DNA of 13,314 bases from Eubacterium sp. Lineage in GTDB: Bacteria; Bacillota_A; Clostridia; Lachnospirales; Lachnospiraceae. Within the stretch, counting starts at the first letter, position 1; every line of letters begins with the position of its first letter. Shown here piece after piece: positions 1,941 through 6,698 of this stretch. The position numbers were made by a program, and so were the translations under genes. The DNA lies in contig JAMPGN010000112.1 in assembly GCA_023663915.1 (NCBI GenBank), forward strand, positions 1 to 13,314. The letters run 5' to 3'. A model generated the notes under the pieces. The model saw only the letters and a list, made by a program, of their open reading frames with translations. It was not told the DNA's origin and searched no databases.

Positions 1941-4130
1941 ATGAGCAGTATATTTGAAACAGATCATGCAGTTGACGAGAATTACGGAGAGCAGTATCAA
2001 CCGGATGGTGTTGTCAAAGTCATCAAGAAGGACGGCAGTCTGGAGAATTTTAATGTGCAGAAAGTAATTGACGCGGTAGGGAAGAGTGCGTACCGTGCAC
2101 TGACCAAGTTCACGGAGGAGGAGAAATGTCATATCTGTCAGACGGTGGTCGATAAGGTCAACGAAATGGGGGAAGAGAAAATTCCGATCCAGATCATGCA
2201 CAATATCGTTGAGAGTGCATTGGAAGATGTGAAACCGATTGTAGCAAAGAGTTACCGGGATTATCGTAATTATAAGCAGGATTTTGTGAGAATGATGGAT
2301 GATGTCTATAAGAAGAGCCAGTCCATTATGTATATCGGGGATAAGGAGAACGCTAATACGGACAGCGCCCTTGTTTCCACGAAGAGAAGTTTGATATTTA
2401 ACCAGTTTAACAAGGAACTGTACCAGAAATTTTTCATGACCACGGAGGAGATACAGGCATGCCGCGACGGCTATCTGTATGTCCATGATATGTCAGCGAG
2501 ACGCGACACAATGAACTGTTGTCTGTTCAATGTCGCTGAAGTGCTGAGCGGTGGCTTTGAGATGGGGAATATCTGGTATAATGAGCCGAAGACGTTAGAC
2601 GTGGCGTTTGATGTGATCGGAGATATCGTATTGAGCGCGGCAAGTCAGCAGTACGGCGGTTTTACGGTGCCGGAAGTGGATAAGATCTTAGAGCCTTATG
2701 CGGAGAAATCCTATAAGCGCGATGTCGAGAAGTATCTCAGACTAGGCATTGCGAGGGAGACTGCCGAGGCAGAGGCTTTGGCAGATGTCACGAAAGAGTT
2801 TGAGCAAGGATTCCAGGGATGGGAGTATAAATTCAATACGGTGGCGAGCAGCCGGGGAGATTACCCTTTTATCACCGTGACGGCGGGCATAGGAACCGGA
2901 AGGTTTGCGAAGATGGCAACCATCGTTATGTTGAACGTGCGCCGCAAGGGACAGGGGAAGAAAGAATGTAAGAAACCGGTGCTTTTTCCTAAGATTGTCT
3001 TCCTCTATGACGAGAATTTACACGGTCCGGGCAAGGAGTTAGAGGAGGTTTTTGAGGCAGGCGTCAAATGTTCGGCAAAGACGATGTATCCGGACTGGCT
3101 CAGCCTTACCGGTAAGGGATATATTGCGAGTATGTACAAGCAGTACGGCAAAGTGATCTCGCCCATGGGGTGCAGGGCTTTCCTCTCGCCGTGGTATGAG
3201 AGGGGTGGAATGCATCCGGCAGATGAGGAAGATAGTCCGGTGTTTGTCGGCAGATTCAATATCGGTGTCGTGTCGCTGCATCTTCCGATGATCTTAGCGA
3301 AATCCCGTCAGGAGAGCAGAGATTTTTATGAAGTGCTGGACTATTATCTGAACCTGATCAGACGGCTGCATATCAGGACATATGCTTATCTGGGGGAAAT
3401 GCGTGCCTCTACCAATCCGCTGGCATACTGCGAGGGCGGATTCCTGGGCGGGCATCTTGACCTTCATGATAAAATCAAACCGATCTTAAAGACGGCGACG
3501 GCGAGTTTCGGTATTACCGCTTTTAACGAGCTTCAAGAGCTTTATAACGGCAAATCGCTTGTGGAAGACGGCGCGTTTGCACTGGAAGTATTGGAGCATA
3601 TTAACAATAAGATCAACGAGTTTAAGGAAGAGGATGGAAACCTCTATGCGATCTACGGAACGCCTGCGGAGAATCTGTGCGGTCTTCAAGTCAAGCAGTT
3701 TCGGGCGAAATACGGTATCGTCGAGGGCGTTTCTGACCGGGAATACGTTTCCAACAGTTTTCATTGCCATGTGACGGAAGATATCACGCCGATTGAGAAG
3801 CAGGATTTAGAATACCGTTTCTGGGAGCTTGCCAACGGCGGTAAGATACAGTATGTAAAATATCCCATTGATTATAATATGGATGCGATCAAGACGCTGA
3901 TTCGCCGCGCTATGGATATGGGGTTCTATGAGGGCGTCAATCTGTCCTTGGCATACTGTGACGACTGTGGGCATCAAGAACTTGAGATGGATGTCTGCCC
4001 GGTATGCGGCAGCCGCAATCTGACGAAGATCGATCGTATGAATGGATATCTGGCTTATTCCCGTGTGCATGGGGATACTAGATTAAGTGAAGCGAAGATG
4101 GCGGAGATCGCAGAAAGGAAAAGTATGTAA
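1941..4130 (+). CDS. nrdD: Anaerobic (class III) ribonucleoside-triphosphate reductase
   Basis: NrdD reduces ribonucleoside triphosphates to deoxyribonucleotides without oxygen, using a glycyl radical installed by NrdG. The 729-residue protein starts with an ATP-cone allosteric domain (about residues 23-115, VVKVIKKDGSLENF onward), followed by the catalytic barrel with C193/C194 in MNCCLF and the likely thiyl-radical cysteine C411 in PMGCRAFLSPW. The C-terminus has a four-cysteine zinc site (C673, C676, C686, C689) and the radical glycine G702 in RMNGYLAY. All key residues are present. The ATG at 1941 follows a very strong GGAGGGGGAG. It is the first gene of nrdD-nrdG-dut, behind a sigma-A promoter with NrdR-like boxes. 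Its stop shares one base with the nrdG start. Confidence 0.97.
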   Translation: MSSIFETDHAVDENYGEQYQPDGVVKVIKKDGSLENFNVQKVIDAVGKSAYRALTKFTEEEKCHICQTVVDKVNEMGEEKIPIQIMHNIVESALEDVKPIVAKSYRDYRNYKQDFVRMMDDVYKKSQSIMYIGDKENANTDSALVSTKRSLIFNQFNKELYQKFFMTTEEIQACRDGYLYVHDMSARRDTMNCCLFNVAEVLSGGFEMGNIWYNEPKTLDVAFDVIGDIVLSAASQQYGGFTVPEVDKILEPYAEKSYKRDVEKYLRLGIARETAEAEALADVTKEFEQGFQGWEYKFNTVASSRGDYPFITVTAGIGTGRFAKMATIVMLNVRRKGQGKKECKKPVLFPKIVFLYDENLHGPGKELEEVFEAGVKCSAKTMYPDWLSLTGKGYIASMYKQYGKVISPMGCRAFLSPWYERGGMHPADEEDSPVFVGRFNIGVVSLHLPMILAKSRQESRDFYEVLDYYLNLIRRLHIRTYAYLGEMRASTNPLAYCEGGFLGGHLDLHDKIKPILKTATASFGITAFNELQELYNGKSLVEDGAFALEVLEHINNKINEFKEEDGNLYAIYGTPAENLCGLQVKQFRAKYGIVEGVSDREYVSNSFHCHVTEDITPIEKQDLEYRFWELANGGKIQYVKYPIDYNMDAIKTLIRRAMDMGFYEGVNLSLAYCDDCGHQELEMDVCPVCGSRNLTKIDRMNGYLAYSRVHGDTRLSEAKMAEIAERKSM

Positions 4131-4639
4131 TGAGATATCACAATATAACGAAAGACGATATGCTTAACGGCGATGGTCTGCGTGTAGTCCTGTGGGTTGC
4201 CGGCTGTACACACTGCTGTAAGGAATGTCAGAATCCCGTCACATGGGACCCTGACGGCGGAATTTTGTTTGACGATGCCGCAAGACAGGAAATCTTTGAC
4301 CAGTTGGAGAAACCGTATATCCAAGGCATTACTTTTTCGGGCGGAGACCCGCTGCATTCGGCTAATCGTCTGGAGGTTCGGGAGTTGATGGAGGAAATTA
4401 AACAGAAATACCCCGATAAGACGATTTGGCTCTATACAGGGGATAGCTGGGAAGATATTTTACATTATCCGATTATGAAGTATGTAGATGTGCTGGTGGA
4501 CGGGGAGTTTCAGGTTGACTTAAAAGACACGAAATTATTCTGGAAGGGAAGCAGCAACCAGAGGGTGATCGACGTTCAGGCAAGTTTAGCGCAGAGTGGT
4601 ACTACACATCCCGTTTTGCACTGTGAAAACTATGCATAG
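4130..4639 (+). CDS. nrdG: Anaerobic ribonucleotide reductase-activating protein (radical SAM)
   Basis: NrdG is the radical SAM activase that forms the glycyl radical on NrdD. The CxxxCxxC iron-sulfur motif is C26, C30, C33 (GCTHCCKECQN), followed by the SAM-binding FSGGDPLH segment near residues 67-74. The closing GSSNQRVIDVQ...VLHCENY is the normal end of the family, so the 169-residue protein is complete. The start ATG overlaps the nrdD stop (TAATG), indicating translational coupling, with AAAGGA inside the end of nrdD as ribosome site. The cluster CTHCC gives one extra cysteine next to the ligand set, which is probably incidental. Confidence 0.96.
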   Translation: MRYHNITKDDMLNGDGLRVVLWVAGCTHCCKECQNPVTWDPDGGILFDDAARQEIFDQLEKPYIQGITFSGGDPLHSANRLEVRELMEEIKQKYPDKTIWLYTGDSWEDILHYPIMKYVDVLVDGEFQVDLKDTKLFWKGSSNQRVIDVQASLAQSGTTHPVLHCENYA

Positions 4640-4753: not shown

Positions 4754-5188
4754 TTGGAAACGATCAAGATCAAATATTTTACGGATAAAATAGACAAACT
4801 GACTTATATTGATGGCAAGTCCGACTGGATTGACCTGCGCGCGGCGGAGGAGATTCAATTAAAAGCGGGAGAGTTTAAACTGATACCGTTAGGCGTTGCC
4901 ATGGAACTGCCCGAAGGCTATGAGGCGCATGTAGTACCCCGCAGTTCCACGTTCAAGAATTATGGCATTATTCAGACCAATCACCAAGGTGTGATCGACC
5001 GCTCCTACTGCGGCGACAATGATCAGTGGTTTATGCCGGTATACGCCGTGCGGGATACAGAGATTCATGTAAACGACAGAATATGTCAGTTCCGCATTAT
5101 GAGAAACCAGCCGAAGATCGTTTTTGATGAGGTAGAACACCTCGACCATGCGGATCGCGGCGGGCATGGGAGTACCGGGAAACAATGA
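4754..5188 (+). CDS. dut: dUTP diphosphatase (dUTPase)
   Basis: Dut hydrolyses dUTP to dUMP and pyrophosphate, keeping uracil out of DNA and feeding thymidylate synthesis. The 144-residue protein shows the five trimeric-dUTPase motifs in order: IDLRA (near residue 27), PRSST (near 62), [12 protein letters not shown] (near 81), NDRICQF (near 107) and the C-terminal RGGHGSTGK arm that closes over the nucleotide. The start is a TTG at 4754: an in-frame stop lies at 4748-4750, there is no earlier ATG, and motif 1 needs the N-terminus. An AGAGGA ribosome site lies eight or nine bases upstream. It appears to be the last gene of the nrd transcript, after the repeat-like segment, and its stop is 15 bases before the terminator hairpin. 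Confidence 0.93.
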
Positions 5189-5192
5189 TTTA

Positions 5193-5223
5193 TGAATAAA
5201 ACGACTCCTTCCAAGACATACTA
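5193..5223 (+). promoter_or_regulatory. Sigma-G (forespore) promoter of spoVAF
   Basis: TGAATA (5193-5198), an 18-base spacer and CATACTA (5217-5223) match exactly the consensus given for Bacillus sigma-G promoters. The expected start is near 5230, about 32 nt before the GTG start of a spore germination gene, which is the kind of gene sigma-G controls. The spacer is at the same time the left arm of the terminator hairpin, so RNA made from here lacks that arm. Confidence 0.8.
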
Positions 5224-5259
5224 TGGGAAATAATGATGAAATCTTGGAAGGAGTTTTTT
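5204..5259 (+). terminator. Terminator of the nrd-dut operon, overlapping the spoVAF ribosome site
   Basis: ACTCCTTCCAAGA (5204-5216) is perfectly complementary to TCTTGGAAGGAGT (5242-5254), giving a 13-bp stem with a 25-base loop, and six T follow (5254-5259). The right arm contains the GGAAGGAG Shine-Dalgarno of spoVAF and the T run is its spacer to the start codon. On a read-through transcript the stem would therefore also hide that ribosome site. The loop is longer than in most terminators. Confidence 0.8.
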
Positions 5260-5261
5260 CA

Positions 5262-6698
5262 GTGAATAAAAGGGAACAAGATTACAACAGTAAAATGACC
5301 ACATCTTTACAACAGACGATGTCTTACATGAATGAACATATGGCGCCGGATACCAGCTTCGACATCGTTTACCGCGTTATAGAAGTGGGTGGCAGGCAGG
5401 CGTGCATCTATTTTATAGATGGATTCTGCAAAGACGAATTGATGATGAAGATTTTGCAGTATTTCATCGACCTTAAGCCGGCGGATATGCCGGAAAATGT
5501 TCATGAGATGGCGAAGAAGGCAACGCCCTATGTGGAAGTAGACTTAAAAGACTCATGGAACGAGATTTTATACAGTGTTCTTTCCGGTGTGTTTGCGCTG
5601 TTTATCGACGGTTATGACAGGTGCATCCTCATCGATTCCAGAACTTATCCCGCGCGAGGCGTGGAAGAGCCGGACAAGGACAAGACGCTGCGCGGTTCCA
5701 AGGACGGGTTTGTGGAGACGATCGTCTTCAACACGGCGCTTATCAGAAGACGTATCCGGAGCACACAGCTTCGCATGGAAATGATGAATGCGGGTAAGAG
5801 TTCACAGACAGATATTGTATTATGTTATATGGATAACCGGGTGGACCATAAATTCCTTGATAAAGTTAAGAAGCGCATCGAGGAGATTCAGGTTGACGCA
5901 CTGACGATGAATCAGGAAAGTCTGGCGGAATGCCTCTATCAGCGCAAATGGTATAATCCTTTTCCGAAATTCAAGTTTACTGAGAGACCCGATGTGGCGG
6001 CAGCTCAAGTGCTGGAAGGAGATATTGTCATACTGGTTGACAATTCGCCGTCGGCGATGATCGTGCCGACATCGATCTTTGATATCGTGGAGGAGGCGGA
6101 TGACTATTATTTTCCACCGATCACCGGAACTTATCTGCGGCTTTCAAGATTTATCATCTCGATACTGACTTATATCATGACGCCGACGTTTCTGCTTCTT
6201 ATGCAGAATCCGGACTGGATACCGGAGTCATTTCGCTTCATTATGCTAAAAGAGGAGTCGAATATACCGCTGATTGCCCAATTCCTCATATTAGAGCTGG
6301 CGATCGACGGCTTGAAACTGGCGGCAGTCAACACACCGAATATGCTCAGTACGCCTCTCAGTGTGATGGCGGCATTGGTGCTTGGCGAATTTTCGGTAAA
6401 TAGTGGCTGGTTCAACGCGGAGGTTATGCTCTACATGGCTTTTGTCGCAATCGCTAACTATACACAGCAGAATTACGAGCTGGGTTATGCCTTAAAATTC
6501 ATGAGGATCATCAATTTAATTCTGACTGCGATCTTTGGTCTGTATGGTTATATCGCAGCGATCCTAATTTTCATATTGTCGATTGTTTGCAATAAGACAT
6601 TATCGGACAAAAGCTATATTTATCCGCTTTTTCCCCTCAATCCGAAACAGCTTGCCAAAAGACTTTTACGGTTACGCTTGCCGGAAGCTAAAAAATGA
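5262..6698 (+). CDS. spoVAF: Stage V sporulation protein AF / GerA-family spore germination protein
   Basis: This is a GerA-family inner spore-membrane protein; the FDIVYRVIEVGGRQACIYFIDG, PYVEVDL and VDALTMNQESLAECL segments look closer to SpoVAF than to nutrient-receptor A subunits. The soluble N-terminal part (about residues 1-290) contains the family signature RGSKDGFVETIVFNTALIRRR from residue 144, and about five membrane segments follow (about 297-316, 334-355, 364-380, 386-402, 411-442). SpoVAF is known to amplify the germination response together with FigP; no such partner gene is seen here. I place the start at GTG 5262 (478 residues), eight bases after GGAAGGAG. An in-frame ATG at 5223 overlaps the sigma-G -10 box and precedes the expected transcript start, so it cannot serve that transcript. 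Confidence 0.85.
   Translation: MNKREQDYNSKMTTSLQQTMSYMNEHMAPDTSFDIVYRVIEVGGRQACIYFIDGFCKDELMMKILQYFIDLKPADMPENVHEMAKKATPYVEVDLKDSWNEILYSVLSGVFALFIDGYDRCILIDSRTYPARGVEEPDKDKTLRGSKDGFVETIVFNTALIRRRIRSTQLRMEMMNAGKSSQTDIVLCYMDNRVDHKFLDKVKKRIEEIQVDALTMNQESLAECLYQRKWYNPFPKFKFTERPDVAAAQVLEGDIVILVDNSPSAMIVPTSIFDIVEEADDYYFPPITGTYLRLSRFIISILTYIMTPTFLLLMQNPDWIPESFRFIMLKEESNIPLIAQFLILELAIDGLKLAAVNTPNMLSTPLSVMAALVLGEFSVNSGWFNAEVMLYMAFVAIANYTQQNYELGYALKFMRIINLILTAIFGLYGYIAAILIFILSIVCNKTLSDKSYIYPLFPLNPKQLAKRLLRLRLPEAKK

Follow-up and report, generated by a model that had tools for sequence, protein, structure and literature searches.

A predicted intrinsic terminator, a forespore-type promoter and the Shine-Dalgarno (SD) sequence of a sporulation gene are interleaved between dut and spoVAF in the window, the 13,314-nucleotide stretch of Eubacterium sp. 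DNA analysed here. This observation is confirmed. We think that the element is best explained as a fused read-through insulator, with a probability of about 0.6 given the evidence of folding and comparison. The mechanism, which is partly supported by folding models and by comparison of sequences, could work as follows. RNA polymerase arriving from nrdD-nrdG-dut would copy both arms of a hairpin, and the hairpin with its U run would end most nrd-dut transcripts. In transcripts that escape, folding predicts that the spoVAF SD is buried in the stem, which would result in poor translation. In the forespore, RNA polymerase with sigma-G (or sigma-F) would use the promoter boxes on either side of the left arm, with transcription starting near position 5230, past that arm. 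RNA started at about 5230 would lack the left arm, so the hairpin could not form and the message would be neither terminated nor hidden. Selection would keep the hairpin mainly while the upstream gene transcribes towards it.

We also suspect, at slightly better than even odds, that the element belongs to a recurrent class in which terminator, anti-SD arm and forespore promoter share the same ~70 bases. Members of this class would be kept, or rebuilt with new arms, behind a co-directional gene (dut, fabH or the gene for gyrase/topoisomerase IV subunit A), and would decay when the upstream gene is divergent.

Genes of the window

The plus strand carries four genes: nrdD, encoding an anaerobic ribonucleoside-triphosphate reductase (1941..4130; TIGR02487, 563.5 bits, cut-off 326); nrdG, encoding the NrdD-activating enzyme (4130..4639; TIGR02491, 185.6 bits, cut-off 126); the dUTPase-type gene dut (4754..5188; PF00692, 54.2 bits, cut-off 22, and under the NCBIfam dut cut-off); and a GerA-family spore germination gene with a GTG start (5262..6698; PF03323, 483.6 bits). 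The GerA-family gene, for which the sole NCBIfam match was GerXA, far under its cut-off, is most likely of the SpoVAF type. This name is inferred from related genomes: the GerAB permease (PF03845) was absent from all six related genomes, SpoVAC/AEB genes were found in all six, and the gene was the only one of the GerA family in the two genomes examined. SpoVAF/FigP is described as an ion channel by which the germinant response is amplified (PMC11837508). An in-frame ATG at 5223 was considered as an alternative start of spoVAF and is less likely, since no SD was seen before it and, by eye in relatives such as L003 and L039, it lies out of frame with the start codon that the SD serves.

Two further features of the window were noted. 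At positions 1-94 on the minus strand there is a match to the Rfam TwoAYGGAY RNA (46.5 bits, gathering score 43), clipped by the window end. Upstream of nrdD there is a perfect 14-bp inverted pair, CACAAAATATAGTA (1673-1686) and TACTATATTTTGTG (1703-1716), which we take to resemble an NrdR box pair.

The interleaved element

All parts of the element are on the plus strand. The dut stop codon TGA (5186-5188) ends 4 bases ahead of a match to a -35 box of the sigma-G type, TGAATA (5193..5198, with GAATA as its core), which is followed by an 18-nt spacer (5199-5216) and a -10 box, CATACTA (5217..5223). The left arm of the hairpin, ACTCCTTCCAAGA (5204..5216), lies within the spacer and is an anti-SD sequence. 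It pairs at 13 of 13 positions with the right arm, TCTTGGAAGGAGT (5242..5254), across a loop of 25 nt that here contains the -10 box; in several relatives the -10 box is in the stem. Inside the right arm is the SD, AAGGAG (5248..5253), and a run of six T (5254..5259, the first one paired) would be both the terminator U-tract and the spacer between the SD and the GTG start codon of spoVAF (5262-5264). Transcripts are expected, from the promoter spacing, to start at 5228..5232. Between the dut stop and the GTG at 5262 there is no space for a separate terminator. The first-pass annotation had described a perfect 13-bp hairpin plus six T behind dut, with the spoVAF SD in its right arm and its left arm in the spacer of a sigma-G-type promoter, and every one of these parts was found in its place. 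The interleaved stretch (5193-5264) is 72 bases long, against the 73 that had been given.

The promoter boxes of the window (GAATA-18-CATACTA) agree with the sigma-G consensus, GHATR - 17/18 - CATNMTA. The exact consensus that had been claimed holds for boxes and spacing; the sigma factor itself is a putative assignment, since in Clostridia the boxes of sigma-F overlap with those of sigma-G. In the part of a C. difficile promoter map available to us, the SigF and SigG consensus sequences overlap, and the spoVAC operon is among the genes with SigF-like boxes that are under both SigF and SigG control (PMC7438776).

A chance inverted repeat is ruled out by folding and by shuffle counts. The fold of 5200-5262 has -21.8 kcal/mol versus -10.0 +/- 2.6 for shuffled sequences (z -4.6; 0 of 200 shuffles as good). 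Perfect 13-bp inverted repeats with a loop of at most 40 were counted three times in the window, at two places, and not once in 20 mononucleotide shuffles; the second place is AT-rich and lies upstream of nrdD. With this stem and the adjoining six T, the element has the parts of an intrinsic terminator. A loop of 25 nt is long for such a terminator, and a simple terminator scan of the window did not list the 5204-5254 hairpin because the scan accepts loops of 3-8 only. The minus strand folds the same hairpin too, followed by CGTTTTATT. The element had been proposed to be a one-way insulator; its logic fits both folding and comparison, but because the minus strand folds as well, "one-way" is doubtful.

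Folding of long and short transcripts

Folding of the window RNA predicts that the SD is unpaired at 0.00 in read-through RNA, that is, paired as in a T4-type switch, versus 0.97 in RNA that starts at any of 5228-5232. For the GTG the predicted values are 0.25 with the upstream arm and 0.75 in the short RNA. The same folding was done for 77 loci with dut upstream and identity above 60%, a set that includes the window and the duplicates L083 and L085. In the long RNA the SD is predicted to be free at 0.05 or less in 70 of the 77 loci, and it is freer in the short RNA than in the long RNA in 76 of them (short-form median 0.58). Three of the seven exceptions (L016, L037 and L062) have loop insertions longer than the folded stretch, and at full length their outer stem closes.

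Sample of relatives

Relatives were collected by a contig scan of genomes, from which the best 80 of 591 relatives were kept, and by further searches of 150 and 397 same-family genomes. These sets overlap, and part of the additional matches was fetched; 9 of the 49 new matching genomes from the 397-genome search were left out. The main test covers 144 loci, including the window, classed by the nearest upstream gene. Loci were taken as near co-directional when the upstream gene was within 270 nt, or was dut further off. Where the upstream gene was not dut, the call was based on an ORF length of at least 140 aa, so that some of the orientations may be in error (those of L182, L102 and L184 look doubtful), and 13 of the 144 loci had no callable upstream gene or start. 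Left out were L054 (no upstream DNA), L081-L082 (not spoVAF), and L083-L085 and L155-L157, whose contigs had already contributed a locus; of these, L083 and L085 remain in the 77-locus folding set and in the 69-locus T-run count below. L113-L152, with only 300 nt of the gene each, were scored apart; L150 and L152 gave no match, which leaves 38 loci in this set.

A locus was scored as having the element when it combined an arm containing the SD, a tail rich in T, a start codon in frame and an arm score of 14 or more. This threshold was chosen after the data were seen, and 22 of 116 reversed-arm controls passed it. This test replaced an MFE-based presence metric that was too lenient.

Presence of the element and orientation of the upstream gene

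When dut is directly upstream on the same strand, the element is present in 78 of 80 loci (window included), and a sigma-G-like match of at least 10.5 of 13 is likewise present in 78. This is the comparison of dut-spoVAF junctions that the first-pass annotation had proposed. The element is present in 18 of the 24 other near co-directional loci, in 3 of 7 far co-directional loci, in 5 of 20 loci with a divergent upstream gene, and in 1 of the 13 without a callable upstream gene or start. Near co-directional and dut-adjacent loci together (96/104) compared with divergent loci (5/20) give a Fisher p of 7e-10, a value that ignores kinship. The five divergent positives have arm scores of 15.8-17.4, with a different left-arm change in each of L026 and L043; three of the 18 near co-directional positives (L097, L101 and L173) score merely 14.5-16.3.

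The two dut-adjacent misses are L166, in which the hairpin appears bulged by eye, and L172, in which the paired part is the start-codon region. In L172, GTTCATACTAAT pairs with ATTAGTATGAAC, bringing together the -10 region and the start-codon region without a T run (by eye), and this locus could be a translation-only version. The near co-directional misses are L092, L102, L108, L184, L187 and L191. L092 follows a gene of the manganese-catalase family that is presumably CotJC-like and so may have a part in sporulation itself. Behind a similar gene, L086 passes at 17.4, though no SD pairing had been seen there earlier. The element is also present behind other genes: it is kept in all seven loci (L025, L027, L032, L035, L037, L039 and L047) that have a gene of 490-506 aa between dut and spoVAF, in two with fabH upstream (L181 and L189, over the NCBIfam cut-off), and in two with the gene for gyrase/topoisomerase IV subunit A upstream (L094 and L168, over the Pfam cut-off, the gene being clipped by the fetched stretch).

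Of the loci that bear the element, 99 have a co-directional gene upstream, and in 93 of these the -35 box is GCATA, GTATA or GAATA. The sigma-G-like score reaches 10.5 of 13 in 95 of the 99 versus 235 of 3000 random places, a background that should fairly be set somewhat higher because the random scan was shorter (38 starts versus 60-80). The left arm mostly starts 0-5 nt past the -35 box, and in 98 of the 99 its end is no more than 5 nt from the -10 box, so that it fills the promoter spacer. With divergent neighbors, 19 of 20 loci still have a promoter-like match. Judged from these sequences, the promoter is separable from the hairpin, and when upstream transcription points away, loss affects the arm more than the promoter.

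Loss of the arm with the promoter kept had been named beforehand as counting against the insulator. Of the 15 divergent loci that lack the element, 14 literally show this, in the class for which the insulator idea predicts it, and it is also found in some co-directional loci. The insulator reading gains from the predicted pairing of the SD and from a hairpin and T run that are kept co-directionally and mostly lost divergently. It is weakened by the 6 of 24 near co-directional loci that lack the element, by the scarcity of the element in the distant branch described below, by the long loop, and by four dut-adjacent loci whose T run is just 3.

On a quick tree, which carries long-branch warnings, the orientation of the upstream gene has changed at least 14 times. 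A kinship-corrected contrast with nine independent pairs on supported branches gave a mean of 5.2 pairs in agreement, 0.4 opposed and 3.3 without a difference, and fell short of significance (p 0.125 at the median, with a range of 0.016-0.375). For dut-adjacent loci versus all others the means were 4.4 in agreement, 0.6 opposed and 4.0 equal (median p 0.219), and an earlier, smaller tree test with four independent pairs had 2.9 agreeing and 0 opposing. The kinship-corrected direction is consistent and the test is underpowered.

In the distant branch (the 38 loci scored apart), the element test is passed by 1 of 11 dut-adjacent loci (L125) versus 3 of 27 others (L121, L145 and L149). Since this branch is mostly without the element, the fused form is one solution used in part of the Lachnospiraceae. 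By eye, L131 and L133 seem to have an ordinary, separate terminator instead of the fused element. Classical hairpin-plus-T terminators were seen by eye near the spoVAF start in L131, L133 and L146. L145, a locus that lacks dut upstream, carries a strong element (arm score 26.7), which possibly arose separately.

A genome-wide pattern search (CTCCTT, CATAMT, AAGGAG) in seven relatives, which covers this one arm sequence only, gave nine matches in six genomes, compared with one in the control. Six of the nine are the spoVAF element and three are elsewhere. A design widespread in the genome is not indicated: of the three, the two that were read (L081 and L082) look like chance matches by eye, and the third is in G005. 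Genome G006 had no match, though its locus L068 has a variant of the element.

Pairing of the arms

Pairing of the arms appears to be conserved more than their sequence. In 58 distinct arm pairs, a locus's own arms score a mean of 22.1, versus 17.1 with right arms of other loci and the left arm re-optimised; the own score is above the swapped mean in 51 of the 58, and reversed arms score 10.9. For a locus at the median, 13.5% of the foreign right arms are as good a fit as the native one. A permutation test of pairing, in which 711 of 812 positions paired and none of 5000 permutations reached that number, is biased because each left arm was picked to fit its own right arm, and the re-optimised arm swap is the fair figure. 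Arms and SDs have been remade, by eye, in L160, L165, L181, L185 and L189, all of which pass the element test. The hairpin loops of L016, L037, L075 and L094 have self-complementary inserts, and the outer stem still closes; shuffled inserts were as good in 9 of 500 cases for L037 and in 0 of 500 for each of the others. In the subclade of L055, L063, L069 and their kin, the -10 box is in the stem and the inner loop is about 8-9 nt.

Alternative explanations

The alternative that survives best is a plain terminator of the upstream operon, with promoter and SD packed in to save space and hiding of the SD without a role of its own. In its favor, presence of the element tracks upstream transcription, two distant loci (L131 and L133) seem to have a separate terminator, and the T run accompanies the hairpin in most loci. 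Each of the 69 dut-adjacent loci measured (the window and the duplicates included) has a T run of 3 or more, mostly 5-7. Runs no longer than 3 occur in 7 of the 80 loci with dut adjacent, in 9 of the 24 that are near co-directional and in 16 of the 20 that are divergent. However, the stem is strong despite a short or interrupted T run in some loci: L065, L068, L069 and L073, all dut-adjacent, have an intact stem and a T run of just 3. In addition, L172 pairs its start-codon region with its -10 region in the absence of any T run, and the arm of a terminator has no need to match an SD. We therefore regard a plain terminator as unlikely, though it deserves to be taken seriously.

Hiding of the SD could instead be the whole function, as in T4 gene e, with termination weak or absent. 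The long loop and the precedents in T4 and sigG are in keeping with this, but a T run that is found in every dut-adjacent locus measured and is short in most divergent ones is unexplained by translation alone, which makes the idea improbable. Least probable of all, and very doubtful, is that the inverted repeat serves as the DNA operator of a protein or persists by common descent alone. In favor are its two-fold symmetry about the promoter, the close kinship of many loci and the lack of significance in the kinship-corrected test. Against it, pairing holds where arm sequences differ widely (by eye in L160, L165, L185 and L189), loop length varies through self-folding inserts, and the hairpin is mostly gone with divergent neighbors while the promoter-like match stays.

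Implications and comparison with known systems

The fused read-through insulator would explain, in a compact and testable way, how a spore gene of gut Lachnospiraceae can remain silent downstream of a growth operon. The relation between orientation of the neighbor and retention of the hairpin is a natural experiment that is feasible on hundreds of genomes. If confirmed, the element would add a terminator function to the design known from T4 and sigG, and it could provide a ready-made insulator part that opens solely for its own promoter.

The first-pass annotation had regarded the arrangement as undescribed. That is not so for its principle, a promoter that removes one arm of the hairpin, which is described for T4 gene e and I-TevI and for B. 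subtilis sigG. According to the available parts of PMC3014915 and PMC2988022, long early RNAs of gene e and I-TevI hide the SD, RNA from the late promoter lacks the 5' part and is translated, with a 100-fold reduction in the case of gene e. As predicted for read-through RNA of the spoVAF element, the long early RNA folds the SD into a stem, and this is so for e, soc, 49 and the I-TevI group of homing endonuclease genes. Unlike the spoVAF element, these are phage genes with phage late promoters, and we claim no homology; those parts of the two papers name no intrinsic terminator formed from the SD hairpin (PMC3014915, PMC2988022), whereas the spoVAF element has a predicted one. In B. subtilis, sigG (spoIIIG) is downstream of spoIIGA-sigE, and a hairpin of 20 or more pairs was proposed, in the part of PMC5942855 available, to block translation of read-through RNA; it cannot form in RNA from PsigG. 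Like spoVAF, sigG is a chromosomal sporulation gene with a GTG start, and its hairpin is absent from RNA of its own promoter, as is predicted for spoVAF. However, it is a different gene, its read-through comes from another sporulation operon, and the block described is translational only (PMC5942855).

The element shares with intrinsic (Rho-independent) terminators a stable stem and a T run right after an operon, and differs from them in a 25-nt loop that holds a -10 box and in a U run that doubles as the SD-to-start spacer. A literature search, with most subscription journals outside its coverage, found no terminator fused with a promoter and an SD, and none is described in the available part of PMC8450116. 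Thus, the principle is known from T4 and B. subtilis, and what is apparently new is the fusion of an SD-hiding hairpin with an intrinsic terminator.
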